NCBI GenBank assembly: GCA_005793285.1
Contig: SXPO01000139.1
Coordinates: 1 to 11,167, forward strand
Length of the DNA: 11,167 nt
Direction: 5' to 3'
Source of the DNA: Nitrospiraceae bacterium
GTDB taxonomy: Bacteria; Nitrospirota; Nitrospiria; Nitrospirales; Nitrospiraceae
How positions within the stretch are numbered: position 1 is the first letter of the stretch; each line of letters starts with the position of its first letter. Positions 1-11,167 of this stretch are shown here, in pieces. Under the pieces are notes generated by a model that saw only the letters and a program-made list of their open reading frames with translations, was not told the DNA's origin and did no database searches. A program made the position numbers and the translations under genes.

Positions 1-291
1 AGGATCATGGTGAAGGAAAGCATCGACGCCTTCGTCAAAGACGACTCGGCGCTGGCCAGAAAAGTACTCGCGCACGATGACCTCGTGGATGAACTGATGG
101 AACAGATATTTCGTGAACTGTTGTCGTTCATGATCGAGGACCCGCATACGATTTCACGCGCGATCCGCCTGAGCTTCATCGCGAAGTACATCGAGCGAGT
201 GGCCGACCATGCCACGAACATCGCTGAATTGGTGGTGTACCTCGTCGAAGGCAAGATCATCCGCCATACCGCGCCGCCCCTGTCGTCCTAA
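1..291 (+). CDS. phoU: PhoU phosphate-signalling protein, C-terminal fragment
   Basis: This is the 3' end of a gene that begins before the window; the reading frame is open from base 1 and ends at TAA 289-291, leaving 96 residues. The sequence matches the second helical-bundle repeat of PhoU, including the signature IERVADHATNIAE close to the end and the VVYLVEGK(I)IRH tail, so the assignment is firm. PhoU proteins are cytoplasmic and peripherally membrane associated; they pass phosphate status from the PstSCAB transporter to the PhoR kinase and bind metals through conserved acidic clusters. The ATG at 7 is internal and is not the true start. The downstream ftsK starts 68 bases later with its own likely promoter, so the two are probably separate units. 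Confidence 0.92.
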   Translation, partial: RIMVKESIDAFVKDDSALARKVLAHDDLVDELMEQIFRELLSFMIEDPHTISRAIRLSFIAKYIERVADHATNIAELVVYLVEGKIIRHTAPPLSS

Positions 292-322
292 GCTCTCCGA
301 TTCGGCTTCATCCCGCGTTCGT

Positions 323-351
323 TTGAAATGACTTTTCCCCTGTGTTAGCAT
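323..351 (+). promoter_or_regulatory. Candidate sigma70 promoter of ftsK, extended -10, possibly leaderless
   Basis: A TTGAAA -35 box lies at 323-328, followed by 17 bases, then TAGCAT at 346-351, preceded by TG at 343-344 as in an extended -10. The predicted transcription start falls at about 358-359, essentially on the ATG of ftsK. No Shine-Dalgarno-like run is visible before that ATG. Only the motif match is seen; promoter activity is inferred. Confidence 0.45.
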
Positions 352-358
352 CCACCGC

Positions 359-2782
359 ATGGGTGTCACTGCCTCGGTCAAGCGGCGCGAAGCCCGCCGG
401 GCCCCTTCTCCGCCTTCTCATCTTCAGCGCGAAGTGATCGGCGTGGTCTTGATCGCGATCAGCCTGCTGATGCTGCTGAGTCTCCTCTCGTTCGTGCCGG
501 GTGAGGCACAAACCGTTGTAGCGGGGGATCCGGTCTCCAGACCACCACGCAATCTCATCGGCTCCTTCGGCGCACTCTTGGCGGAAGGGTTATTTTATCT
601 CATTGGCGGGGCGGCCTATCTGTTTCCGCTCTTGTTGGGCCGGCTGGGAATACGTTGTTTCTCGCAGAGTCCCGCCAGTATCCGTGTGAGGACGGCCGGA
701 AGCTCCCTGGCTGCTGTGTTTTTTTTGAGCGCATTTCTTCATCTCGAAACGACGGCGATTCCGACAGTCGCGAGTGGAATGATCTCTCGGGGGATGCCGG
801 GCGGAGCCGTCGGCCAGCTAGTCGGAGATGGGCTTCAGGCTGTGTTCGCCGGCACCGGCGCGCACATTCTTATCATCGCAGGATTCCTTGTCTCACTCTT
901 GTTCACCACCCCGTTGTCGATCGGGGAAGTGGTTCGTCGAATACCTCAACGCTGGGCTGGCCTCCGTGAACGGCTGGCCGCGGTGATTCCGGAGCGGTCG
1001 GCAGAGGAACCGGAAGAGAGCAGTAATCGGAGTGAGTCAGCCAAGAGACCGCAACTGGTCCAGGCCGGTATGGGTATGGATTCGAGCGCTGAGCCGGAAG
1101 AAGAGAGTGAGCCGGTTTCTATTGCAGCGCCTCCCGTTATTCAGCAGGCTGCCACGGCTTCGTCCATTGCAGTGGAAGAAGAGCTTGAACCGGAAATTGC
1201 AGCTGCACCGGTCGAGGCCGGTGACTATCGCTTGCCCGATCCAGAAGTCCTACTGAGCGATCCTTCTGGCCCTCTCAGTCGCATGGACGATGAGGAGCTG
1301 AGGGTCCAGTCGGACGTTCTATCGAAGGCTCTGGCCAGTTTCGGCATCGACGGCCGGGTCACAGAAGTGCGACCGGGGCCGGTGGTGACGATGTATGAGT
1401 TTGAACCGGTGCCCGGCACCAAGGTGGCGCGCATCGTCAGTCTGGCCGACGATGTAGCGCTGGCGCTCAAAGCGGTGAGTCTCCGCATCGTTGCGCCGTT
1501 GCCCGGCAAGTCGGTGGTGGGTATCGAGGTGCCGAATCGGTCCCGTGAAACCGTGTCTCTTAAGGAAGTCTTGATGAGCGAGACCTTCACGAGGGCTCGG
1601 TCAAGACTGACGCTGGCATTGGGAAAAGATATTTTCGGCGCGCCGGTCACTGCGGATCTCAAAACCATGCCGCATCTTCTCGTTGCAGGCGCGACCGGAG
1701 CCGGCAAGAGCGTCAGTCTGAATACGATGCTGCTAAGTATTCTCTTTTCCGCAAAGCCGAGCGAGGTCAAGCTGTTGCTCATCGATCCAAAGATGCTGGA
1801 ATTTCAGTCGTATGAGGGCATTCCTCATCTCTTGCGGCCTGTGATCACGGATCCCAAATCGGCGGCTAGGGGGTTGGGGTGGGTTGTGGCTGAGATGGAA
1901 CGACGGTACAAGCTCTTGGCGGAGGCCAGTGTGCGGAATATTGATTCGTATAATCGAAAGGTGGCCGGTTTGCACGAGGCGTTCGCCGATCGGACCGTAC
2001 CGCCCGTCGAGCAGCAAGAGTTGCCGATGCAGTTTCTTTCAGAAGAGCAACGGCTATCCGCCGGTGAGACGGCGATCGCCGAGGGCGAGCCTGGCTGCAT
2101 GCGGTCTGTCCAGACGCCACCGGAGCCGCTGCCGTATATTGTGGTGATGATCGATGAGTTGGCTGATTTGATGATGGTGGCTCCCAAAGACGTGGAAGAC
2201 AAAATCGCACGGCTCGCGCAGATGGCGCGGGCCTCTGGCATCCATCTCGTGCTGGCCACGCAGCGGCCGTCCGTTGACGTGTTGACCGGATTGATCAAGG
2301 CCAATTTTCCTGCGCGCATTGCATTCCAGGTTTCTTCAAAGACCGACTCGCGGACGATTTTGGATGCGAACGGCGCGGAGGCGCTGCTTGGCCGAGGTGA
2401 CATGCTGTATCTCGCCTCCGGCACCGGACGGCTTGCTCGTTTACATGGGGCCTTCGTGTCGGATGACGATGTGGGTTCTGTCGTCGATTTTGTCAAGAAA
2501 CAGGCGTTGCCGGCGTATAATCAGGCACTGCAATCGCTTCAATCGGAAGAGGCGGCCAAGGAAGAGGAAAAAGATGAGGTGTATGAACAGGCCAAAGATC
2601 TGGTGCTGACGACCGGGCAAGCGTCGGCCTCGCTGATTCAGCGCCGGTTACGCGTCGGCTACCCACGAGCTGCCCGTATGATTGAGCAGATGGAGACGGA
2701 AGGGATCGTCGGCGCGGCGGGGCGGGATGGGCGTCGTGAAGTGTTGGGCCGGCGTGGGCCGGTCGGGGCTGCGGAAGCATGA
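359..2782 (+). CDS. ftsK: FtsK/SpoIIIE-type DNA translocase
   Basis: This membrane-anchored DNA pump acts at the division septum to clear and align the chromosome termini. The 807 residues carry the full family layout. A basic N-terminus is followed by about four hydrophobic helices (roughly residues 25-46, 67-97, 113-128, 168-186), then a short acidic and Ala/Pro/Glu-rich linker (about 212-290). The motor domain follows, with Walker A GATGAGKS at 444-451, Walker B VVMIDE at 595-600 and the LATQRPSVDVLTGLIKAN motif at 632-649. A winged-helix gamma domain at about 738-797 is the part that recognises polar DNA motifs in this family. The linker is much shorter than in E. coli FtsK. Between YNRK (531-534) and PYIVV (592) there is a Gln/Glu-rich stretch somewhat longer than I recall in homologues, probably a surface insertion. 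The start at 359 keeps the basic pre-helix segment; there is no ribosome-binding site, which fits the leaderless promoter idea. The stop overlaps the lolA start (ATGA). Confidence 0.96.
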   Translation: MGVTASVKRREARRAPSPPSHLQREVIGVVLIAISLLMLLSLLSFVPGEAQTVVAGDPVSRPPRNLIGSFGALLAEGLFYLIGGAAYLFPLLLGRLGIRCFSQSPASIRVRTAGSSLAAVFFLSAFLHLETTAIPTVASGMISRGMPGGAVGQLVGDGLQAVFAGTGAHILIIAGFLVSLLFTTPLSIGEVVRRIPQRWAGLRERLAAVIPERSAEEPEESSNRSESAKRPQLVQAGMGMDSSAEPEEESEPVSIAAPPVIQQAATASSIAVEEELEPEIAAAPVEAGDYRLPDPEVLLSDPSGPLSRMDDEELRVQSDVLSKALASFGIDGRVTEVRPGPVVTMYEFEPVPGTKVARIVSLADDVALALKAVSLRIVAPLPGKSVVGIEVPNRSRETVSLKEVLMSETFTRARSRLTLALGKDIFGAPVTADLKTMPHLLVAGATGAGKSVSLNTMLLSILFSAKPSEVKLLLIDPKMLEFQSYEGIPHLLRPVITDPKSAARGLGWVVAEMERRYKLLAEASVRNIDSYNRKVAGLHEAFADRTVPPVEQQELPMQFLSEEQRLSAGETAIAEGEPGCMRSVQTPPEPLPYIVVMIDELADLMMVAPKDVEDKIARLAQMARASGIHLVLATQRPSVDVLTGLIKANFPARIAFQVSSKTDSRTILDANGAEALLGRGDMLYLASGTGRLARLHGAFVSDDDVGSVVDFVKKQALPAYNQALQSLQSEEAAKEEEKDEVYEQAKDLVLTTGQASASLIQRRLRVGYPRAARMIEQMETEGIVGAAGRDGRREVLGRRGPVGAAEA

Positions 2783-3486
2783 GTCGCTACTGGTTGCTAG
2801 TCCTGTTCAGTCTGCTGATTGTTTCTCCGGCTATAGGCGCCGATGGACCGGCTGATGACAAGGCGTTTCAGGAGGTCCGTGAGGTCGTGAAGCAGATTCA
2901 GGCCCGGTATGAAAAAACCAAGGACCTCCAAGCGGACTTTGTCCAGAAGACGAGGATAGAAGGGTTCGAGCGTCCGGTGATCTCGTCCGGCAAGGTGTAT
3001 CTCAAGAAGCCGGGTCGGCTGCGGTGGGACTACATTGATCCTGCGCACGAAGAAATTTATGTGAAGGGAGACGATGTCAGGGTCTATGTCCCGGAGCACA
3101 AACAGGTATTGATCGGAAAGTTGACACAGATGGCGGCATCCCAAGCGCCGTTGGAGCTTCTGCAGGGGGCAGCCAGTTTGGACCAATCGTTCGATGTCGA
3201 GCCGACGCCAGGGAACGAGCGGGGACCCGATGGGGTTCGCCCGATTACGTTGTTTCCTAAATCCAAGGAGCAGGAGTCATCGAGGAATCTTCAACGGATC
3301 GTCGTGGAAGTATTCCCGAAGACGTACTTTCTTCGTACCGTGTCGTTGTACGAGATCGGCGGCAATGTGGCCACGTTTGAGTTTTCCGGGTTGAAACCGA
3401 ATGCCGGATTGGGGAATGAGGTGTTTGATTTCAAAGCCCCGCCGGATGTCGAAGTCGTCAAGGCTCCGGTGTTGACTGGGCCGTAA
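2779..3486 (+). CDS. lolA: Outer-membrane lipoprotein carrier LolA
   Basis: LolA is a periplasmic chaperone that accepts lipoproteins from the LolCDE transporter and hands them to the outer membrane, so its presence implies a diderm cell. The 235-residue product begins with a signal peptide: a hydrophobic core at about residues 5-17 and likely cleavage after Ala21 (IGA|D), leaving a mature protein of normal LolA size. The body shows family hallmarks: the LQADFVQKTR segment early in the mature part, SSGKVYLKKPGRLRWDY, then EEIYVKGDDVRVYVPEHKQV, which form the open beta-barrel half. Its ATG overlaps the ftsK TGA in an ATGA, so the two are translationally coupled; the same gene order is known in enterobacteria. 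No lolB gene is in the window. Confidence 0.92.
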   Translation: MSRYWLLVLFSLLIVSPAIGADGPADDKAFQEVREVVKQIQARYEKTKDLQADFVQKTRIEGFERPVISSGKVYLKKPGRLRWDYIDPAHEEIYVKGDDVRVYVPEHKQVLIGKLTQMAASQAPLELLQGAASLDQSFDVEPTPGNERGPDGVRPITLFPKSKEQESSRNLQRIVVEVFPKTYFLRTVSLYEIGGNVATFEFSGLKPNAGLGNEVFDFKAPPDVEVVKAPVLTGP

Positions 3487-3502
3487 TGGGATGTGTTTTG
3501 TG

Positions 3503-3572
3503 TCAATGGTCACGCGTCACGCGTGGGAAGAAAAATGGAATCCTGTGTGATTGACGGGTGACGCGTGACGAC
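3503..3572. repeat. Heptamer palindrome element A (TCACGCG / CGCGTGA units)
   Basis: The left arm has 7-base units in register at 3503, 3510 and 3517; the last two are both TCACGCG. The right arm has units of the TGACGCG type at 3552, 3559 and 3566. GTCACGCGTCAC at 3509-3520 and GTGACGCGTGAC at 3558-3569 are exact reverse complements, 12 base pairs with a 37-base loop. The loop contains GAAGAAAAA at 3527-3535. The element sits between the lolA stop and the 2OG-oxygenase gene and could fold in RNA as a stable hairpin, possibly limiting read-through from ftsK-lolA. It has the same design as the elements at 4949-5034 and 6428-6508 but a different unit sequence. Confidence 0.75.
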
Positions 3573-3578
3573 ATTGGC

Positions 3579-3586
3579 GGGAGGAG
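3579..3586 (+). promoter_or_regulatory. Ribosome-binding site that decides the 2OG-oxygenase start
   Basis: GGGAGGAG ends 11 bases before the ATG at 3598. This favours ATG 3598 over the in-frame GTG at 3565, which lies inside heptamer element A, has no Shine-Dalgarno sequence before it and would add 11 residues unlike any enzyme core. Confidence 0.6.
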
Positions 3587-3597
3587 CGAGTTCGAAG

Positions 3598-4359
3598 ATG
3601 AATCTCCAGACGAGCAGTGTGGCAGAAGCAGTCGAGCGGGCGGTGGCAGGATTGGACATGGAACGCCTGCGCCGTGAGTATTGGGATCAGAATGAGTTTC
3701 TGGTCATCAAACAATTTTTGCCGAGAGCATTCGTCGAGGACAGGCTGGTGCCTCAGGCTCAGGGGGTCAAGGGGGAGCTCAATCGAAACTATATCCCGGG
3801 CCATAAAAAGGGAGGCAGCGTCAGCTATTATACGGTGCAGGAAAAGGCTCCCCGGTTTCTAGATCTCTACCGGTCGGACCCCTTCAAGTCGTTCTTGAGC
3901 CGGCTCGTCGACGCGAAGCTGACGTTTTGTCCGGATAATGATCCACATTCGTGCGCACTCTATTACTATACCGAGCCAGGCGACCACATTGGGTTTCATT
4001 ACGATACGTCGTACTACAAAGGGGCGCGCTACACGATCTTGATGGGGTTGGTCGACCGATCGACGCACTGCAAGTTGGTGTGCGAACTTTTTAAGGACGA
4101 CCCAACGAAACAGCCGCGCCATCTTGAGTTGGTGACCGAGCCAGGCGATATGGTGATTTTCAACGGCGATAAGCTGTGGCATGCCGTCACACCATTGGCA
4201 GAGGGAGAAGAGCGGATCGCCCTGACGATGGAATACGTGACGAATCCAGACATGAATCCCGTCAAGCGGCTCTATTCCAATCTAAAAGACTCCATCGGGT
4301 ACTTCGGTCTCAAAGGAGTCTTTAAGCGTGCGCTCTCCGGTTCCAAGCAATCCAGATAG
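3598..4359 (+). CDS. Fe(II)/2-oxoglutarate-dependent oxygenase family protein
   Basis: The 253-residue soluble protein, counted from ATG 3598, has the facial triad of Fe(II)/2OG oxygenases on a double-stranded beta helix. His134 and Asp136 lie in FHYDTSYY (HxD), the distal His195 is in KLWHAVTPL, and Arg206 (EERIALTMEY), 11 residues further on, is placed to bind the 2-oxoglutarate carboxylate. Asp in HxD argues for hydroxylation or a related oxidation rather than halogenation, because 2OG halogenases replace it with Gly or Ala. The GDMVIFNGDKLWH segment before the distal His is typical of the jelly-roll core. The YYYTEPGDHIGFHYD region resembles prolyl/lysyl hydroxylase-like members, but I cannot name the substrate. 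No signal peptide or membrane segment is visible, so it should be cytoplasmic. It stands alone, separated from lolA by a palindromic element and facing a convergent gene. Confidence 0.85.
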   Translation: MNLQTSSVAEAVERAVAGLDMERLRREYWDQNEFLVIKQFLPRAFVEDRLVPQAQGVKGELNRNYIPGHKKGGSVSYYTVQEKAPRFLDLYRSDPFKSFLSRLVDAKLTFCPDNDPHSCALYYYTEPGDHIGFHYDTSYYKGARYTILMGLVDRSTHCKLVCELFKDDPTKQPRHLELVTEPGDMVIFNGDKLWHAVTPLAEGEERIALTMEYVTNPDMNPVKRLYSNLKDSIGYFGLKGVFKRALSGSKQSR

Positions 4360-4391
4360 GCGTAAACCAGTAGAATTGTCGGAAGGTCAAG

Positions 4392-4411
4392 ATATCGGTG
4401 AAGGCCGATAT
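4392..4411. terminator. Short hairpin between convergent genes
   Basis: ATATCGG at 4392-4398 and CCGATAT at 4405-4411 form a perfect 7-base-pair stem with a 6-base loop, in the 70-base gap between two converging stop codons. There is no T run on either side, so intrinsic termination is doubtful. Apart from this the gap holds nothing I recognise. Confidence 0.25.
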
Positions 4412-4429
4412 GGTCGAGGGGGACAGACG

Positions 4430-4939
4430 CTACTGGTGCAGGTGTTTCATGGCAGCTGCGCAGAGAATGATGAAAAATCCCATCCAGAGGGCGGCGCGTT
4501 GGAAAGGGATTGCTTCATAGGACTCCCCCTCATCGGTCTCATCGTCTGACTTGAAAATGACCGTGTACAGAAAGAGTGTCAGGAGGCCCAGCACGAGAAG
4601 AAGCTTGATCATCAAGACCATGAGGTATTTGGCATGGTGCGGTATGCCGACGCCGGTCTGCGAGGTGATGGCCTGGTTGACGTAATGGAGGTTCACGCCG
4701 CCGGTGAACAGCAAGATGAGCAAGAGGATACCGGCGACTTTCTTATAGTGCTGGTAGAACGCATCGGTGATGGGCTTGATCTGATCTTTCGCGACGGCCT
4801 GTTTCAGGCCAGGCGTGACTGCCATGACGAGAAAGGCTAATCCGCCGACCCAAATGACGGCCGAGAGAAGATGGAACCAATGGTTGATGATCGGAATCAG
4901 CGTATTGAGATCGATGACAATGCTTTGCAGAGCGTCCAT
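4430..4939 (-). CDS. Four-helix integral membrane protein, CopD/HemJ-like
   Basis: The 169-residue protein has four hydrophobic helices at about residues 17-42, 66-86, 104-128 and 146-166. Helix 1 begins NHWFHLLSAVIWVGGLAF, the histidine-plus-(W)VGG pattern seen in CopD-type copper proteins and in the HemJ family of protoporphyrinogen oxidases; both are superfamilies of small b-haem or metal-binding membrane proteins. Other candidate ligands are His64, His85, His101, His102, His166 and His168. The resemblance is to the superfamily only, and I cannot decide between copper transport, haem-linked oxidation and a cytochrome role. It is the last gene of the minus-strand run after the radical SAM gene, 83 bases downstream and separated by heptamer element B. 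No clear Shine-Dalgarno precedes ATG 4939, so translation may depend on the upstream gene. A short acidic segment (about 131-141) joins helices 3 and 4. Confidence 0.72.
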   Translation of the reverse strand: MDALQSIVIDLNTLIPIINHWFHLLSAVIWVGGLAFLVMAVTPGLKQAVAKDQIKPITDAFYQHYKKVAGILLLILLFTGGVNLHYVNQAITSQTGVGIPHHAKYLMVLMIKLLLVLGLLTLFLYTVIFKSDDETDEGESYEAIPFQRAALWMGFFIILCAAAMKHLHQ

Positions 4940-4948
4940 AGCTAGTGC

Positions 4949-5034
4949 CGTGAAACGTTAAAGGGTGAAACGTCAGGGAGAAGGAAAGACTCCGGAAGCC
5001 GGAACTTTTTGCGTCTCACGGTTTACGTTTCACG
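4949..5034. repeat. Heptamer palindrome element B (CGTGAAA units)
   Basis: The left arm has units CGTGAAA at 4949, CGTTAAA at 4956, GGTGAAA at 4964 (after one extra base) and CGTCAGG at 4971. Read on the minus strand, the right arm has CGTGAAA (5034-5028), CGTAAAC (5027-5021), CGTGAGA (5020-5014) and CGCAAAA (5013-5007), in perfect 7-base register. The arms are inverted copies and could pair into a long imperfect hairpin. The spacer contains GAAGGAAA (4980-4987) and a small GC hairpin. The minus-strand TAA stop of the radical SAM gene (5025-5023) lies inside the CGTAAAC unit, so the element defines the end of that protein. Confidence 0.75.
4991..5010. terminator. Small GC hairpin with T run nested inside element B
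   Basis: TCCGG at 4991-4995 and CCGGA at 4999-5003 form a 5-base-pair stem with loop AAG, followed on the plus strand by ACTTTTT (5004-5010). It looks like a weak intrinsic terminator for plus-strand transcripts arriving from the oxygenase side. On the minus strand it is followed only by GTCTTTCC. Function is inferred from shape alone. Confidence 0.3.
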
Positions 5035-6420
5035 ATCGAATTTAAAGACCGGGGCGTCGTTTCCGAATCGCTTCTTGCGGAGTTCTTCCATCAACTCGAT
5101 GGTAATGAGAGGGACATTGTTCTCGCGCGCGTGCTTCTCGACCCCTTTTTTCACCATGGCGCGAAGGAAATATGGAATACGGCTGAGACGGAGGGCCGAG
5201 GCGTCGTCCCAGGCTACCTCGGACTCTTCCGGCGTATTGAACGCAACCTTGATTCTCTCGCCGCCTTTCGGTGTGTAGAGACACCACTGGTCTTCGTCTA
5301 GCCAGTCTCCGTGGTCGACATAGGGGCGGGCGCGGCAGCCTCCACAGATGTCGGTGTATTCACAGTCGCCGCATTTACCTTTGAGCTGGGGATAGCGGAA
5401 CGAATTGAACACATCCGACTTATCCCAGAGATCGGCGAAGCTGTTGTGGCGGACATTGCCGGCTGAGAGAGGCATATAGGGGCAGGGCGTCAATTCTCCG
5501 TTGGGTGTCACACGGGCGTAGTTTGTGCCGGCGAGGCAGCCTCCACCCATATAGCCGGTGGCCTTGGTAATCGGAGAATTGGGGTCTTTCTCATAGGCCA
5601 GTCGCTTGAAGTGCGGCGCGCAGCGGGCACGGACGAGCATGCCTTTGTAATTGTCCTGGCAGGTGACCAGGTATCCGAGCACTTCTTCGTATTGAGCCGG
5701 AGTGATATCGGTCAATTCTTCTCCACGTCCCGTGCAGACCATGAAAAAGACATTCAAGACGCGGGCGCCGAGTTGATGGGCCCAGTCGATGACCGTCGGC
5801 AGTTCGGTGTAATTCATCGGCTGCGCGCTAAAATGAACTTGGAATTGGAGGCCGTTGCGCTTGCTGGCCTCGATTCCAGCCACAGCTGCTTCCCAGGCGC
5901 CTGGGACCCCGCGGAACGCATTGTGTTTGACCGGATCGAGTGAATCGATGCTAATGCCGACGCCCATGACGCCGATCTCAACCAGCGCTTTGGCCATCCG
6001 GTCATCGATAAGCATTCCGTTCGTTCCAAAGACAACCATGAAGCCAAGTTTCACGGCATAGCGCGCGATATCAAGGATGTCCGGGCGCACCAATGGCTCG
6101 CCTCCGGTGATGACGAGCAGGCACCCCTTGTTGACCTCGGCGATTTGGTCGATGAGTCTGAAACATTCTTCCGTGGACAGTTCGTCGTCGCCGCCTGCCG
6201 CTTTCGTTGTGGCGTCGAGGTAGCAATGGTCGCATTTGAGGTTGCAACGTTTGGTCAGGTTCAGGGCAACCAGATAGGGCTTGAAGTCATCGACGGTTCG
6301 GCCGTCGTGTGGAGCTGGACCTTGGGCTGTCGGTGTGAGGAACTGGGTGACTTGCTGCTGGAAAGAGCCGAACGCGCCCGCCAGAGCGGAGCCGTTAAAG
6401 ATGGGAAGTGATTTGCCCAT
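5023..6420 (-). CDS. Radical SAM/SPASM protein with C-terminal PCP_red-like domain
   Basis: The 465-residue enzyme has a complete radical SAM core. The CxxxCxxC cluster site is Cys59/Cys63/Cys66 in NLTKRCNLKCDHCYLDA, GGEPLVRPD at 106-114 binds SAM, and GISIDS lies at 155-160. A SPASM-type region for auxiliary clusters follows, with cysteines 267, 295, 313, 350, 353, 359, 362 and 380, including CGDCEYTDICGGC. The core resembles the NirJ/AhbC/AhbD group that modifies sirohaem-derived tetrapyrroles, but the same fold also serves peptide maturases. Residues about 404-450 form a further domain: Trp404, LSRIPYFLR, VEKHARENN and ITIELMEEL follow the pattern of the PCP_red C-terminal domain of protochlorophyllide reductase subunit B. 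That fusion supports a tetrapyrrole substrate, an inference. It follows the USP/PCP_red gene by 79 bases and precedes the CopD-like gene. ATG 6420 lies directly beside heptamer element C with no visible Shine-Dalgarno, and its stop lies in element B. Confidence 0.88.
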   Translation of the reverse strand: MGKSLPIFNGSALAGAFGSFQQQVTQFLTPTAQGPAPHDGRTVDDFKPYLVALNLTKRCNLKCDHCYLDATTKAAGGDDELSTEECFRLIDQIAEVNKGCLLVITGGEPLVRPDILDIARYAVKLGFMVVFGTNGMLIDDRMAKALVEIGVMGVGISIDSLDPVKHNAFRGVPGAWEAAVAGIEASKRNGLQFQVHFSAQPMNYTELPTVIDWAHQLGARVLNVFFMVCTGRGEELTDITPAQYEEVLGYLVTCQDNYKGMLVRARCAPHFKRLAYEKDPNSPITKATGYMGGGCLAGTNYARVTPNGELTPCPYMPLSAGNVRHNSFADLWDKSDVFNSFRYPQLKGKCGDCEYTDICGGCRARPYVDHGDWLDEDQWCLYTPKGGERIKVAFNTPEESEVAWDDASALRLSRIPYFLRAMVKKGVEKHARENNVPLITIELMEELRKKRFGNDAPVFKFDRET

Positions 6421-6427
6421 ACTGTTC

Positions 6428-6508
6428 AGTGTCGAGTGCTGAGTCGCGAGTGCTGGGTTACGGTTGCGAAGAAAATCAGACGAGGCTCAGCACCAAGCAC
6501 TAGGCACT
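6428..6508. repeat. Heptamer palindrome element C (AGTGCTG units)
   Basis: The left arm has gap-free 7-base units at 6428, 6435, 6442 and 6449; two are exactly AGTGCTG and the others AGTGTCG and AGTCGCG. A diverged unit may follow at 6456. The right arm, read on the minus strand, has AGTGCCT (6508-6502), AGTGCTT (6501-6495), GGTGCTG (6494-6488) and AGCCTCG (6487-6481). The spacer holds GAAGAAAAT at 6468-6476. The element fills almost the whole gap between the USP/PCP_red gene and the radical SAM gene, begins 8 bases from the latter's start codon, and supplies the TAG stop (6502-6500) of the former. Confidence 0.78.
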
Positions 6509-8575
6509 TCCCTTTCCCGTCAGGTCGGCGATCATGTCCTTGAGGTTGCCGGTTTTCATGGCTTCCGCCATGTAGCCTTTCGCCTGCTCGATGCCTTCGT
6601 GTGCGACCTCGATGGTGATGTGAGTCACGCCGATCTTTTCCGCGTGCTTGACGATGAGCGCTTTGGTGCAGTCCCGCATGAAGCCTTCCGGGGCCCGTTC
6701 CAGCCTGGCCTGTGCCTCGACGGTCCAGGTATAGGGAGCAGGCGTAATGTGGCCGTTGTCTGCTTCTGGTGTGCCGTTTCCGTTGACGGTTGCAAGCGTG
6801 GCCGCCGCTTCGGCAGACGTCCCAGTGCCCTTGTTGGCGAAGATCGGTGTGTAGTCTTCCGAGGCCGCTTCTTTGATCATCGGGGCTGCGTATTCGAGGG
6901 TGATCGTCGTCATCCCCAGCTTGCGCGCGGTTTTTTCAATTTTGGCTTTGGCGCGGCGCCGCTGAAAGCCAGCCGGTACCGCTCGGATCGCTTCTTTTGC
7001 ATCTTTGGTCCATTGCATCGGCACATCGTCGTACGCGAGGTCCGTTTCCAGTTCGCCTTCGGCCGTCGCCGCCACTTCAAACACCTTCCTGTCGACTTGC
7101 TTGAACTTCGTCCCGTCCGCGCTGCACACCGGACATTTGACCGGCGCGTCGCCTTTGCCGATGTATCCACAGCCGTCACAGACAAAGTAGTTTTGACTCA
7201 TGCGGTCCAGGTAGGCCTGAGTGGAGGCATCGATGAACTTCGGTTTCTCCTCGACAATCTGGGTCATGACTCCGCTTAACGTCGGGCCCATGAGATCTTT
7301 TGTCACGGATTCGTCAGCCTGCATCTTGTCGCGATCGATGCCGGCTGCATCCAGACTGCCACCAAGCGCGCGCATAGCATCCATGGCGCCTTTAGGCAGG
7401 ATATGCCCAACCGCTGCATCCACGACCGTGTTGCTGATGATGGTGTGACCTTTTTCGATGGCGTACCGATGAATGGCCGTCTTGGCCACGCCGCGCGCAA
7501 AGATCGGGATCTTTTCCATCCGGCGCAAGGCTTCCTCGGTCCAGGCGATCGTGTATTCCGCCTGGGTATCGATCGGTGGTACATATTTCCGATTCGAGAT
7601 GAGCACATTACAGGGCGCGCTCCGGAGAAGGTTTTCCGTGTTGCTGCCGATATCCATATCCTCGTCGCTATGGACGCCGATACGGCCCACGATCAGCAAG
7701 GCCGGAATGTCTTTCCGCACGTATTGAATGATCTTTTCGAAGGCCTTGCCGTCGAGCAAGGTCGTCTTGACGTCGGTCTGCTCAGCCTGCGCGATTTCAC
7801 GGGAGATATCGAGATGCGACTGGTAGATTTTGGCCAAGCCGCTGTCGATGATTTCTTCGTGCAGTTTTTCCTGTTCCTTGAAACGGAAGACTTTTCCGGC
7901 CTCTTCGTTCAACACACCGGAAATGCTGTGGAACGCCGCATAGTGGAAATAGGGGTCAAACGCCGCAATCGCTTCCACCGGCATGTTCAAGGCCTTGCCG
8001 AGCTGAAGTCCCGTCATCAGGCCGCCGAAAGAATGGGGGCTGCCGTCCACGGCCACCACGATCTTGCCGACCGTCATCGGCTGGGTGTTCTTGATGATCA
8101 GCATGTCGGAGTTGCGCACGCGGCGCACGACACGTTCCGTATTGCTGCCGATGACGCTGTCTTTCACCGCACCGACACCCAACGCTCCCATGATGACGAG
8201 ATCGTACCCGTTGGTATTGATGTCTTCGGCCAGGACTTTCCAATTCCGGCCCTCGAGCGATCGGCGTTCGATCGGCAAATTGGCTTCATTACATTTCTTG
8301 TCGACGTAGTCGAGATAGGAGTCCGTGATGATCTGAAGCCCGCGGGTGATCAGCGAGTCGTGAATCTGGCGTTGGCGGTCGAGTTCCTTCTCATCGTGGT
8401 ATTCCTCAGGCAGGCCCGCTTCCATCTGCTTGAAGCGTTTATCGTGCATCTTGGCGGCATAGACATGGCTGCCGACAATTTTTGAACCGAACGTCTTGGC
8501 CATGTGAACGCCGATATCCACGGCCGTATTGGAATGATCGGAGTTATCAACGGGGATATAGATAGTCTTATACAT
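6500..8575 (-). CDS. Universal stress tandem fused to three PCP_red-like domains and a rubredoxin-like knuckle
   Basis: This 691-residue cytoplasmic protein has a mosaic layout. Residues 1-167 and 168-335 are two UspA-type domains. Each keeps the ATP-binding motif GxxGx9GSNT (130-146, GALGVG...IGSNT; 297-313, GRIGV...IGSNT), so both are expected to bind nucleotide. Three PCP_red-like segments follow, at about 345-390 (Trp345, KIPIFARG, IHRYAIEKG), 522-568 (Trp522, VPAGFQRR, IEKTARKLG, ITLE) and 617-664 (Trp617, APEGFMRD, IVKHAEKIG, ITIE). Between the first two lies a rubredoxin/rubrerythrin-type knuckle, CDGCGYIGKGDAPVKCPVC, with Cys466/469/481/484, able to hold Fe or Zn. An Ala/Gly/Thr-rich linker (about 571-613) separates the last two PCP_red segments. 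I know of no characterised protein with this layout. It is first in a minus-strand run with the PCP_red-carrying radical SAM gene, so ATP sensing, electron transfer and tetrapyrrole binding may be linked (inference). The start is supported by a strong ribosome-binding site; the stop lies inside heptamer element C. Confidence 0.88.
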   Translation of the reverse strand: MYKTIYIPVDNSDHSNTAVDIGVHMAKTFGSKIVGSHVYAAKMHDKRFKQMEAGLPEEYHDEKELDRQRQIHDSLITRGLQIITDSYLDYVDKKCNEANLPIERRSLEGRNWKVLAEDINTNGYDLVIMGALGVGAVKDSVIGSNTERVVRRVRNSDMLIIKNTQPMTVGKIVVAVDGSPHSFGGLMTGLQLGKALNMPVEAIAAFDPYFHYAAFHSISGVLNEEAGKVFRFKEQEKLHEEIIDSGLAKIYQSHLDISREIAQAEQTDVKTTLLDGKAFEKIIQYVRKDIPALLIVGRIGVHSDEDMDIGSNTENLLRSAPCNVLISNRKYVPPIDTQAEYTIAWTEEALRRMEKIPIFARGVAKTAIHRYAIEKGHTIISNTVVDAAVGHILPKGAMDAMRALGGSLDAAGIDRDKMQADESVTKDLMGPTLSGVMTQIVEEKPKFIDASTQAYLDRMSQNYFVCDGCGYIGKGDAPVKCPVCSADGTKFKQVDRKVFEVAATAEGELETDLAYDDVPMQWTKDAKEAIRAVPAGFQRRRAKAKIEKTARKLGMTTITLEYAAPMIKEAASEDYTPIFANKGTGTSAEAAATLATVNGNGTPEADNGHITPAPYTWTVEAQARLERAPEGFMRDCTKALIVKHAEKIGVTHITIEVAHEGIEQAKGYMAEAMKTGNLKDMIADLTGKGSA

Positions 8576-8589
8576 GGAGGCGCCTCCTT
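8576..8589 (-). promoter_or_regulatory. Strong ribosome-binding site within a 12-base palindrome
   Basis: On the minus strand AAGGAGG (8589-8583) lies 7 bases before the ATG of the USP/PCP_red gene, ideal spacing. The 12 bases 8576-8587, GGAGGCGCCTCC, are a perfect palindrome, so GGAG can pair with CTCC across a GCGC loop and mask the Shine-Dalgarno. It confirms the 8575 start; the masking effect is inference. Confidence 0.65.
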
Positions 8590-8675
8590 AGGGCGCTATC
8601 ATGAGACAGGCGAAACGCCGTAATCGTATGAAAAACCAAATGGTTGACGTGCGCACAGAGCCGTAAAGAAAGCGG

Positions 8676-8705
8676 ATGATAGCACTGGCTGGAACTGGAA
8701 TGCAA
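8676..8705 (-). promoter_or_regulatory. Candidate sigma70 promoter of the USP/PCP_red operon
   Basis: On the minus strand, TTGCAT (8705-8700) is followed by 18 bases and then TATCAT (8681-8676), preceded by TGC as an extended -10. The start site would be near 8669, giving a leader of about 90 bases. This is the best promoter match in the 221-base gap 8576-8796, which otherwise holds only short palindromes (8634-8645, 8649-8656, 8718-8730) and no gene. Confidence 0.4.
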
Positions 8706-8717
8706 GAAGGCCGTGAA

Positions 8718-8730
8718 GGGTGTCACACCC
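8718..8730. promoter_or_regulatory. Inverted repeat upstream of the operon promoter, possible operator
   Basis: GGGTGT and ACACCC are perfect inverted 6-base arms separated by one base. The centre, at 8724, lies about 55 bases upstream of the predicted start near 8669, where an activator would bind. No regulator can be named from the sequence. Confidence 0.3.
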
Positions 8731-8796
8731 AATGGTCAAGCCTCAAGCAATGGAGAAATCAAAAGATTTTCTGCCAGGCCGACGAGAGGATGGTGT

Positions 8797-10425
8797 TTAC
8801 CTGGCTGAAGTGACGTGGGGATTCTCAACCGATGGGATAGAAGGCGGCGCAGGGTGTCGGGGCCGGAGAATATCTTCAATCGCGAGCAAGGCGTCTCGTC
8901 CCGAATTACCTTCGATGCCTTTGCTCAAGTTCGTGTCTGCATACGAGGTTGTTTTCGTACCGGATTGAGAGAGAGAGCCGGTCCATTTTCTGGGATCGCG
9001 ACTGCCTTGTTTCTTTTCCCAGGCTCGCAGGCAGGCCTTGGCGATGACGCTATTGAGCGGCGCCGGGTTATAGAGCAGTTTTCTGATGCTGCTTGGAGTC
9101 AACATCAGGGGGTTATACCCGGCCGACAGGTACCCTTCTTCGAGCAATCGATGTTCCAGATCCGTATTGGGCTGGATCCCCAGGAAGAACATCAAGGGGA
9201 AGACCCGTTCCTCACCCAGGATCGAGGCGACCATCTTGTAGGATTCCACGCTCTGAAGCAGGCTCTCTTCCGTCTCCTTCGGGCTGTTGAGTGAGTAGTT
9301 CAGAATGACTTTGCCCCTGAAGCCTGCCTCGGCCAGATAACGACAGCCGTCATAGAGCCGTTCCAGCTTGAATCCCATGTGAAGGTTGTTCAGAACCTCT
9401 TGCGAGCCGGAAGTGATGGCCACTTCCAAATCGCCGACGCCCGACCGCACCATCAGCTTGGCCAAGTCCGGGGTGATCAAAGAAGTCCTGATGTAACCGG
9501 ACCACTCGATATCGAGTTTCTCGGCAAGAATCCGCTCAAGGATCTCCGTACATTGCGGATAGGCTTCTTTGCCGGTGATGAATTGGGCGTCGGTGAACCA
9601 GAAGCGGCGCGTCCCCCACTGGTGATAATGCTGGGCGATATCCTTGACGACCATGTCCGGAGGCCGATAGCGAACCCGCTTGCCTTCGATATAGGGATAG
9701 AGACAGAAGGCGCAGTCATAGGGGCAGCCGCGCTTGGTTTGCACCCCGATGGATTCGTGCTGATATTCTCGATATTGAGGGAAAATCGAGGTGAGATAGG
9801 GGAGATCGACCGTCTGGGCGTCGAGCAAGGTCGGTGAGCCTTGATTGCCCTTTCTGACGGAATTCCCCTCCTTGATGATATAGCGTTCGTCTTCGATCGA
9901 GCGGCCTTCAATCACTTTCAATATTGCATCTTCGCCTTCCCCCAACAGGCCGATCGTGCCGTCCGGTAGTTTTTCGATCAATTGATCGGCAAACGCGGTG
10001 AAGGCTCCGCCCCCGATCATAATCTGAGCCTTGGGGAACTCTTTGCGGACCAGCCAGGGATAGGACAGGATTGTATAGATGTGGCTGTAGTACCGGTAGA
10101 GCTGTTTCACGCCTGCAAAGGAGGCGGCAATCCGCTTCAGCGGGTTGCTGGCAAAATAAAAATTGAAGGCATGTTCCAGCGACGAATCGCCTTCGTGAGG
10201 CGAAAAGATCTGAATATCGCGCCAGGAAAAGCAGACGAGATCCGGCTTGAAGTCGGCAGCCGCATCGCGAATCGCCTGACTCCGTTGCGGCACAGGAAAC
10301 AGCGACAGATCGAGGATGCGCTGCCGTACCTCAGGCTTCCGTCGGTGGATGAAGTCCGCCAGATAGGTAATCCCGATGGGATAGACCTTCTTGCAGGGGA
10401 GGAAGATATAAAGAATCGAGTTCAT
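8797..10425 (-). CDS. B12-binding-type radical SAM protein
   Basis: The 542-residue protein has an N-terminal Rossmann-like region of the cobalamin-binding type (about 1-175), ending in IGGGAFTAF (137-145) and LLGEGEDAI (160-168), which mark this class. The radical SAM core follows: Cys234/Cys238/Cys241 in KRGCPYDCAFCLYPY, then RYRPPDMVVKDI (252-263) and FWFTDAQFI (275-283). Where the N-terminal domain normally carries DxHxxG, the histidine that ligates cobalt, this one reads DLSLFP (39-44), so any cobalamin would be bound without that histidine, as in TsrM. The class includes methylases and ring-forming enzymes such as BchE; the substrate here is unknown. The last 65 residues are polar, probably disordered. 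ATG 10425 gives the full N-terminal strand SILYIFLP, although no strong Shine-Dalgarno precedes it. It follows the UbiE-type gene by 76 bases on the same strand, with a possible weak terminator between. Confidence 0.83.
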   Translation of the reverse strand: MNSILYIFLPCKKVYPIGITYLADFIHRRKPEVRQRILDLSLFPVPQRSQAIRDAAADFKPDLVCFSWRDIQIFSPHEGDSSLEHAFNFYFASNPLKRIAASFAGVKQLYRYYSHIYTILSYPWLVRKEFPKAQIMIGGGAFTAFADQLIEKLPDGTIGLLGEGEDAILKVIEGRSIEDERYIIKEGNSVRKGNQGSPTLLDAQTVDLPYLTSIFPQYREYQHESIGVQTKRGCPYDCAFCLYPYIEGKRVRYRPPDMVVKDIAQHYHQWGTRRFWFTDAQFITGKEAYPQCTEILERILAEKLDIEWSGYIRTSLITPDLAKLMVRSGVGDLEVAITSGSQEVLNNLHMGFKLERLYDGCRYLAEAGFRGKVILNYSLNSPKETEESLLQSVESYKMVASILGEERVFPLMFFLGIQPNTDLEHRLLEEGYLSAGYNPLMLTPSSIRKLLYNPAPLNSVIAKACLRAWEKKQGSRDPRKWTGSLSQSGTKTTSYADTNLSKGIEGNSGRDALLAIEDILRPRHPAPPSIPSVENPHVTSAR

Positions 10426-10430
10426 AGTGC

Positions 10431-10503
10431 GATAGTCTTCAAGTCAAAAAGTCCGAAAGCAAGGACCGGATGACTTTCCAACTGTATGGACGTTACGACT
10501 ATC
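10431..10503. repeat. Possible degenerate 8-base palindrome element
   Basis: GATAGTC at 10431-10437 and GACTATC at 10497-10503 are exact reverse complements enclosing the gap between the UbiE-type gene and the B12-type radical SAM gene. Inside, AGTC recurs with 8-base spacing at 10434, 10442 and 10450, and the other side shows AGTC/CGTC on the minus strand at roughly 8-9-base spacing. The right end covers the stop codon of the methyltransferase. The units are far more degenerate than in the three heptamer elements, so this could be chance. Confidence 0.3.
10446..10466 (-). terminator. Weak intrinsic terminator after the UbiE-type gene
   Basis: On the minus strand GTCC (10466-10463), an 8-base loop and GGAC (10454-10451) are followed by TTTTT (10450-10446). 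The stem is only 4 base pairs, so termination would be partial at best. Confidence 0.3.
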
Positions 10504-11167
10504 ATTTGACGGCGATGTGGATCGCGACGATCCCGCCGGTCAGGTTCTTATACGACACCTGGCTGTAGCCGGCCTCGCGTAAAATCTGGCAGAGCCGTTC
10601 TTGATCCGGGAACGTGCGGATCGATGCCGGAAGGTATTCGTACACGCCCGTTTTATCTCGCGCCACCTTTGTGCCGACCCATGGCAAGAGTTTGAACGAA
10701 TACCAATCGTACAGGGCTCGCAGCCAGCCGAACACGGGGCGTGAAAATTCCAGACAGATGAAACGGCCCCCCGGCTTCATGACGCGGCGAATCTCGCGCA
10801 CCGCTTGCGGAAGGTTGCCGACATTGCGCATGCAGAAGCCGGTGGTGACGGCATCGAAGGTATTGTCGGTAAAGCCCAAATGTTCCGCGCTTGCCTGCAA
10901 GCAGGTGATTTTTCCGGTCAGCCCTCTACCGTCCACTTTTTTAAGGCCTTCGGCCAGCATGGCATAGTTCAGGTCGGACGCCACTACGCGCCCAGTTGCG
11001 CCCATTCGTGGCTCAACCAGCAGCGCGAGATCTGCCGTACCGGCCCCGACATCAAGGGCCGTGCCTTGTTCGACCGGCGTGACAAACGACGCGGCGATTT
11101 GTTTCCAGCGGTAATGGAGGCCGAAGCTGAGGAGCGTATTATTCAGGTCGTAGACGCCGGCGATGGA
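10502..11167 (-). CDS. ubiE: UbiE/MenG-type quinone C-methyltransferase, N-terminus outside window
   Basis: This SAM-dependent enzyme methylates the quinone ring in menaquinone or ubiquinone biosynthesis. The frame stays open to the window edge and gives 221 residues ending at TGA 10504-10502; the family is about 230-250 residues long, so some 10-30 N-terminal residues are missing. Visible motifs, in fragment numbering, are the opening SIAGVYDLNNTLLSFGLHYRW, typical of UbiE, and SAM motif I ALDVGAGTADLAL (37-49). Next come the acidic SDLNYAML region, TTGFCMRNVGNL and RVMKPGGRFICLEFSRP, the family signature. The ATG at 11005 is internal: the motif I sequence lies upstream of it, so it is not the true start. 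In a Nitrospirota-like organism menaquinone would be the expected product (inference). The next gene on the same strand is the B12-type radical SAM protein. Confidence 0.92.
   Translation of the reverse strand, partial: SIAGVYDLNNTLLSFGLHYRWKQIAASFVTPVEQGTALDVGAGTADLALLVEPRMGATGRVVASDLNYAMLAEGLKKVDGRGLTGKITCLQASAEHLGFTDNTFDAVTTGFCMRNVGNLPQAVREIRRVMKPGGRFICLEFSRPVFGWLRALYDWYSFKLLPWVGTKVARDKTGVYEYLPASIRTFPDQERLCQILREAGYSQVSYKNLTGGIVAIHIAVK

Follow-up and report, generated by a model that had tools for sequence, protein, structure and literature searches.

PCP_red, best known from chlorophyll synthesis, in a universal stress protein of nitrite-oxidising Nitrospira: a gene pair that may handle a haem-like pigment

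Background

What is PCP_red, a domain best known from chlorophyll synthesis, doing in nitrite-oxidising Nitrospira, bacteria without photosynthesis? The question is raised by contig SXPO01000139.1 of a Nitrospiraceae bacterium (assembly GCA_005793285.1), analysed over its positions 1 to 11,167; this whole stretch of 11,167 nucleotides is called the window. One of its genes encodes a protein in which universal stress protein (Usp) domains, PCP_red domains and a rubredoxin-like knuckle are joined in one chain. The adjacent gene encodes a radical S-adenosylmethionine (SAM) enzyme which carries a PCP_red domain of its own, a context on which a preliminary description of the locus was silent. We propose that the Usp-PCP_red protein is the ATP-binding partner of this enzyme in a conserved, non-photosynthetic tetrapyrrole module, a reading that stands, in our judgement, evenly balanced between right and wrong. 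It is built on the conservation of the gene pair, the PCP_red domain common to both partners, the ATP motifs, and the fusion of PCP_red to tetrapyrrole-type proteins elsewhere; from these the substrate, the product and the role of the Usp part are inferred.

Domain organization of the two proteins

The two genes and their parts are as follows.

6500..8575, minus strand: Usp-Usp-PCP_red-RUBY-PCP_red-PCP_red protein, 691 aa, ATG start; homologue P0001 is 99% identical
8087..8575, minus strand: Usp domain 1, residues ~1-163; H37, H44, M51, E52 and H72 invariant in 85 rows
8144..8188, minus strand: ATP motif of Usp 1, GALGVGAVKDSVIGS, residues 130-144, by motif pattern
7589..8077, minus strand: Usp domain 2, residues ~167-329; D207, H211, E236, H239 and H302 invariant in 85 rows
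7643..7687, minus strand: ATP motif of Usp 2, GRIGVHSDEDMDIGS, residues 297-311, by motif pattern
7409..7543, minus strand: PCP_red copy 1, residues 345-389; W345 and P357 in 85/85 aligned rows
7100..7186, minus strand: rubredoxin-like four-Cys knuckle, residues 464-492; optional across the wider family
6872..7012, minus strand: PCP_red copy 2, residues 522-568
6584..6727, minus strand: PCP_red copy 3, residues 617-664
5023..6420, minus strand: AhbD/NirJ2-like radical SAM/SPASM enzyme, 465 aa, probably in the same operon as the Usp gene
5077..5211, minus strand: C-terminal PCP_red of the radical SAM enzyme, residues 404-448; 1.8e-12 (Pfam)

The preliminary description had listed two Usp domains, three PCP_red domains and a four-cysteine knuckle in one chain, and Pfam profiles bear this out. 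Usp (PF00582) matches in two stretches (3.8e-31), PCP_red in three (1.6e-30, 105.3 bits against a cut-off of 32.5), and RUBY_RBDX at 2.2e-6 (27.4 bits, cut-off 26.5). Scored singly, the PCP_red copies reach 53.3, 41.4 and 31.8 bits; copy 3 falls narrowly below the cut-off here, whereas the equivalent copies of N. moscoviensis and N. defluvii lie above it. Profile comparison gave 98.8 to 99.5% for the PCP_red copies and 99.4% for the two Usp domains. Judged by sequence profile all three copies are PCP_red, as had been proposed for segments 345-390, 522-568 and 617-664. Structure prediction, suggested at the time as a check, is in closest agreement for copy 1, which is predicted to adopt the PCP_red fold (1.1 A over 50 residues to 2ynm_D). 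The predicted fold of the Usp part is a Usp fold and matches tandem Usps, that of the knuckle (pattern CxxC-x11-CxxC, two CxxC pairs) nigerythrin and rubrerythrin. The Usp ATP motif, which we take to be G-2x-G-9x-G-S/T, is present from residues 130 and 297, so that the motifs are intact in both domains, as originally claimed, and the tandem would be expected to bind a nucleotide.

Conservation of the gene pair

The pairing was followed in the best 80 of 257 relatives of the locus, whose titles read Nitrospira, Nitrospiraceae, Nitrospirae and, once, Nitrosospira. In 79 of these 80 loci the radical SAM gene is the next one after the Usp gene, in the same orientation; in the remaining one the contig ends 80 bases past the Usp stop. 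The estimated gap ranges from -119 to 114 bases, with a 1-base overlap in 22 of the 79 loci, and the two genes probably form one operon.

The association extends to the wider phylum. A sample of 118 Nitrospirota genomes was surveyed. Since several matches were partial, genes counted as neighbours with as many as 1,100 bases separating the matched stretches; radical SAM enzymes were assigned to the module type from 300 bits upwards, a line that we placed in the score gap from 309 to 272 bits. PCP_red was found in 62 genomes, the Usp protein in 42 and the module-type enzyme in 46, out of 93 with any match at 1e-60; Usp protein and enzyme occur together in 41 (Fisher p 5.6e-25, a value that ignores kinship and overstates independence). 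The enzyme adjoins the Usp gene on the same strand in 40 of 43 Usp loci, the exceptions being G020, where no enzyme was found, G009, where it lies on another contig, and the second Usp copy of G046. Five genomes (G027, G057, G075, G085 and G094) have the enzyme and no scored Usp protein; in G027 a cut-off open reading frame with two PCP_red matches precedes the enzyme at the contig start. Among these five, PCP_red on the enzyme itself is confirmed for G075 alone. All 28 sampled genomes of f1, the window's own family, carry the Usp-PCP_red protein, though the match in G095 covers the last third only. The statement that PCP_red is otherwise known from BchB proved too narrow, given its presence in more than half of the genomes surveyed.

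The protein could alternatively be a general Usp-type sensor of stress or ATP, its adjacency to the radical SAM gene being historical and the PCP_red copies serving only oligomer formation. Several sources indeed annotate such proteins as universal stress proteins, and the fold match to tandem Usps fits. We consider this very improbable, since the adjacency is kept at ~50-60% protein identity across Nitrospirota families, the partner bears the same PCP_red domain, and a set of histidine, aspartate and glutamate residues is invariant in 85 rows.

Minimal form and invariant residues

All 120 homologues listed, out of 5592 found, carry PF08369 and PF00582, and pattern matching shows two or more ATP motifs and one CxxC-CxxC knuckle in each; the RUBY label appears in 111. 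PCP_red matches number three in 119 of them and four in one. Where a source name is given it is universal stress protein, once with the word 'modular'. A wider search, with a relative from family f6 as query, listed 120 of 4287 homologues, 101 of them newly numbered, with Nitrospirota, Nitrospinota, Mariprofundaceae, Candidatus Binatia, Deltaproteobacterium and Candidatus Dormibacteria among the named taxa. A single PCP_red match was found in 33 of these 101, and the knuckle is absent from 76, as it is from the single scanned proteins of f6 (L141) and f12 (L157). Therefore the smallest form, as far as domain matches tell, is Usp-Usp-PCP_red, to which the knuckle and the extra PCP_red copies are add-ons.

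Electron transfer, raised as possible in the preliminary description, is rejected as a core function on these counts. A redox protein, whose knuckle passes electrons to a tetrapyrrole held on PCP_red, would account for the four cysteines kept in the 120 close homologues listed and for the nigerythrin and rubrerythrin fold matches; with the knuckle missing from three quarters of the wider set, such a protein is scarcely tenable.

Ten residues are invariant in the 85-row alignment: H37, H44, H72, H211, H239, H302, M51, E52, D207 and E236. The stretches best matched by solved Usps are residues ~88-203 and 252-337, and all invariant residues except H302 fall outside them. The invariant histidine, aspartate and glutamate set points to a putative site beyond ATP binding.

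Relation of the radical SAM enzyme to haem b synthesis

The top NCBIfam models of the neighbour (5023-6420) are NirJ2 (TIGR04055, 323.2 bits) and AhbD (TIGR04545, 310.7 bits), both below the cut-off of 500. In a tree of 25 radical SAM rows, in which long branches meet and some joins are unsure, the module enzymes and G075_411 make up one group (86/88). It is separate from the AhbD group (100/97), of which two PCP_red-bearing enzymes of f10 are members, and from a third group (100/100). True AhbD is found besides the module enzyme in G004 (522 bits) and G023 (516 bits; its module enzyme gene is cut by the contig end). On the grounds of score, tree and coexistence, the neighbour is not a plain AhbD.

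The module could nonetheless be an oxygen-independent route to haem b. According to this view, a cell short of oxygen or peroxide would rely on the radical SAM enzyme to perform the AhbD reaction on coproheme, with the Usp part as a stress or ATP switch. NirJ2 and AhbD are its best-matching families, and passages of a review state that AhbD and HemQ carry out the same final step (PMC7242693); in N. marina, four UspA proteins, not specified in the passages of the text concerned, are up at low oxygen (PMC8115632). N. moscoviensis and N. defluvii each have HemY, HemH and two proteins of the chlorite-dismutase family, and neither a HemN over cut-off nor a PF17805 match (HemF was not searched for). 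We take PF17805 to be of AhbA/B type. The two N. defluvii proteins of the chlorite-dismutase family score 63 and 123 bits against the HemQ model (cut-off 235). G073, a genome in one contig from the same order, has HemY, with no HemH or PF17805 match and no HemN over cut-off. Such a route is improbable. The enzyme scores 311 against the AhbD cut-off and branches separately, and G010 and G114 have HemN, HemH and HemY over cut-off and yet keep the module enzyme. Because the module is present beside true AhbD, or beside HemN, HemH and HemY, it is not simply a haem b route.

PCP_red in other gene settings

Tetrapyrrole involvement, guessed at in the preliminary description, gains indirect support from the company that PCP_red keeps elsewhere. 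Family f12 has a protoporphyrinogen oxidase as its third gene (TIGR00562; 305 bits in L143, against 97.9), which directly follows the radical SAM gene in L143 and L144; L157 has a homologue two genes away from the Usp-PCP_red gene. The f12 radical SAM enzymes (706 and 716 aa) end in tails that share 40-42% identity, over 256-263 aa, with a four-PCP_red protein of N. defluvii, which links this separate protein to the module. In genome G008 (f10) an AhbD-class enzyme (489 bits, cut-off 500) carries PCP_red (37.4 bits), and its counterpart in G018 also matches the local PCP_red profile; G008 has PF17805 genes, with no HemY, HemN or HemH over cut-off.

In family f13, taken to be Leptospirillia from protein names, PCP_red matches occur in 10 genomes. 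PCP_red is fused there to a domain of the chlorite-dismutase/HemQ superfamily in all eight loci fetched and in 35 of 46 protein matches. We take one alignment column to hold the proximal haem ligand. All 28 aligned fusion rows lack histidine at this column, which five rows without PCP_red have; in the fusions P0149 and P0154 a histidine stands two columns further on. The fusions score 53-56 bits against the HemQ model (cut-off 235). An ordinary coproheme decarboxylase is thus rejected, since the proximal histidine is absent from every row. The haem of Leptospirillum cytochrome 579 has a spectrum that fits none of the usual types, according to passages of a published account (PMC8126622). That it might be linked to the PCP_red fusions of this lineage is only a thought.

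Other settings are mixed. A span of ~9 kb in L147 (f4) has Usp, radical SAM and CopD-like genes on one strand; encoded on the opposite strand are four-PCP_red, haem-oxygenase-like (PF14518), two-PCP_red and Mrp-type proteins. A two-PCP_red protein of N. defluvii (G051, L154 2124-7398) shares its coding strand with an O-methyltransferase and a match to bd-type oxidase subunit I. In the genome of the window itself, at L001 1-1659, an Mrp/ApbC-type ATPase gene precedes one whose product has two PCP_red domains and CxxC pairs.

Other genes of the window

Three further genes lie on the same strand as the pair.

4430..4939, minus strand: CopD-like small membrane protein; Pfam CopD 8.4e-4 and NCBIfam CopD 36.5 bits, both below cut-off
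8797-10425, minus strand: B12-binding radical SAM protein near slr0320; NF045585, 448 bits, cut-off 775
10502-11167, minus strand: MpqE, methyl-plastoquinone methyltransferase; 380 bits, cut-off 335

Of the 79 Nitrospira loci with the radical SAM gene, 71 have the CopD-like gene downstream; of the eight others, seven are on contigs that end within 121 bases of the radical SAM match, and one lacks the gene with 6,594 bases left. In 70 of the 79 the Usp gene has the B12-binding radical SAM gene upstream. A promoter scan of the window found none (shuffles gave 2.1), and terminator-like sites were at chance level.

A model for the pair and the evidence that weighs on it

If the pair is a tetrapyrrole module, PCP_red would be a common part for handling or docking a haem-like macrocycle or intermediate, as the fusions suggest. 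The Usp tandem, with helical parts specific to the family, would bind ATP and gate or scaffold the step in which the radical SAM enzyme receives the macrocycle. The enzyme would then remove or remodel a side chain, by analogy with the chemistry of AhbD and NirJ described in passages of PMC7242693 and PMC10548856. The four-Cys knuckle would be an optional, lineage-specific metal site outside the core.

Several observations weigh against this model. Copy 1 of PCP_red has no histidine, cysteine or methionine conserved at 70% or more in the 85 rows, unlike an axial ligand, and the Leptospirillia fusions lack the proximal-column histidine. No tetrapyrrole is evident where PCP_red stands beside an Mrp/ApbC-type ATPase, or, in three f19 loci, after a radical SAM gene of the B12 type. 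G075, also of f19, has a radical SAM-PCP_red enzyme and no Usp match, and by alignment reach the enzymes of G057, G085 and G094 resemble it. The module coexists with differing haem b gene sets, and the binding and activity ascribed to it are read from sequence and gene context.

Some of these settings favour another role, in which PCP_red serves Fe-S and radical SAM proteins as a general docking domain, and the Usp protein is an ATP-dependent assembly or repair factor with no tetrapyrrole on PCP_red. A PCP_red protein with CxxC pairs follows the Mrp/ApbC-type ATPase in the window's own genome and in the loci fetched from f1, f3, f4, f6 and f12; the f19 loci and the missing axial ligand fit as well, and BchB and AhbD are themselves Fe-S enzymes. 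On the other hand, neither the chlorite-dismutase/HemQ-superfamily fusions nor the adjacent protoporphyrinogen oxidase are Fe-S proteins, and the radical SAM fusions found belong to the AhbD/NirJ side. A docking role is possible, though on balance we doubt it.

The tetrapyrrole module can be taken one step further, with less confidence. Nitrospirota and some other lineages might make or install a modified haem or another tetrapyrrole not described so far; the Usp-PCP_red protein would act as an ATP-gated macrocycle chaperone that delivers its cargo by way of PCP_red to an AhbD-sister radical SAM enzyme. We regard this extension as rather unlikely. Were it true, PCP_red would serve tetrapyrrole handling in general, and the BchB C-terminus would simply be its best-known case. 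Should the module reading be borne out, a domain filed under chlorophyll synthesis would become a sign of haem-type chemistry independent of light, and an enzymatic partner would be defined for a universal stress protein. Nitrospira are widespread nitrite oxidisers. The pair offers a route to two questions, the role of PCP_red and the product of a second, AhbD-like enzyme in genomes that have haem b genes.

Comparison with known systems

No characterised equivalent of the Usp-PCP_red protein was found in the open-access literature, subscription journals being mostly not covered, and the passages of two papers on the dark-operative protochlorophyllide reductase have nothing on the C-terminal domain of BchB. 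BchB/ChlB of that enzyme has a C-terminal PCP_red fold in common with copy 1 (2ynm_D). The nitrogenase-like part of BchB is in contrast missing here, and the BchB model reaches 62.9 bits against 509, over the PCP_red stretches only. Tandem Usps (Rv2623, TTHA0350, UspE) leave the H37-H72 and D207-H239 parts unmatched by sequence, and PCP_red and the knuckle are additions of the window protein. The rubredoxin-like domain of nigerythrin and rubrerythrin shares the four-Cys knuckle, RUBY_RBDX being just over its cut-off, but no diiron domain is among the Pfam matches here, and the knuckle is optional in the Usp-PCP_red family.

AhbD haem b synthase and NirJ2 have the radical SAM/SPASM architecture in common with the neighbour, and one AhbD-class enzyme also has PCP_red; the neighbour, in turn, stays under both cut-offs, outside the AhbD group of the tree, and coexists with AhbD. 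The Leptospirillia fusions, which contain no Usp and differ by the proximal-column histidine missing from 28/28 rows, share PCP_red with the window protein, joined there to a protein of a haem-binding superfamily.
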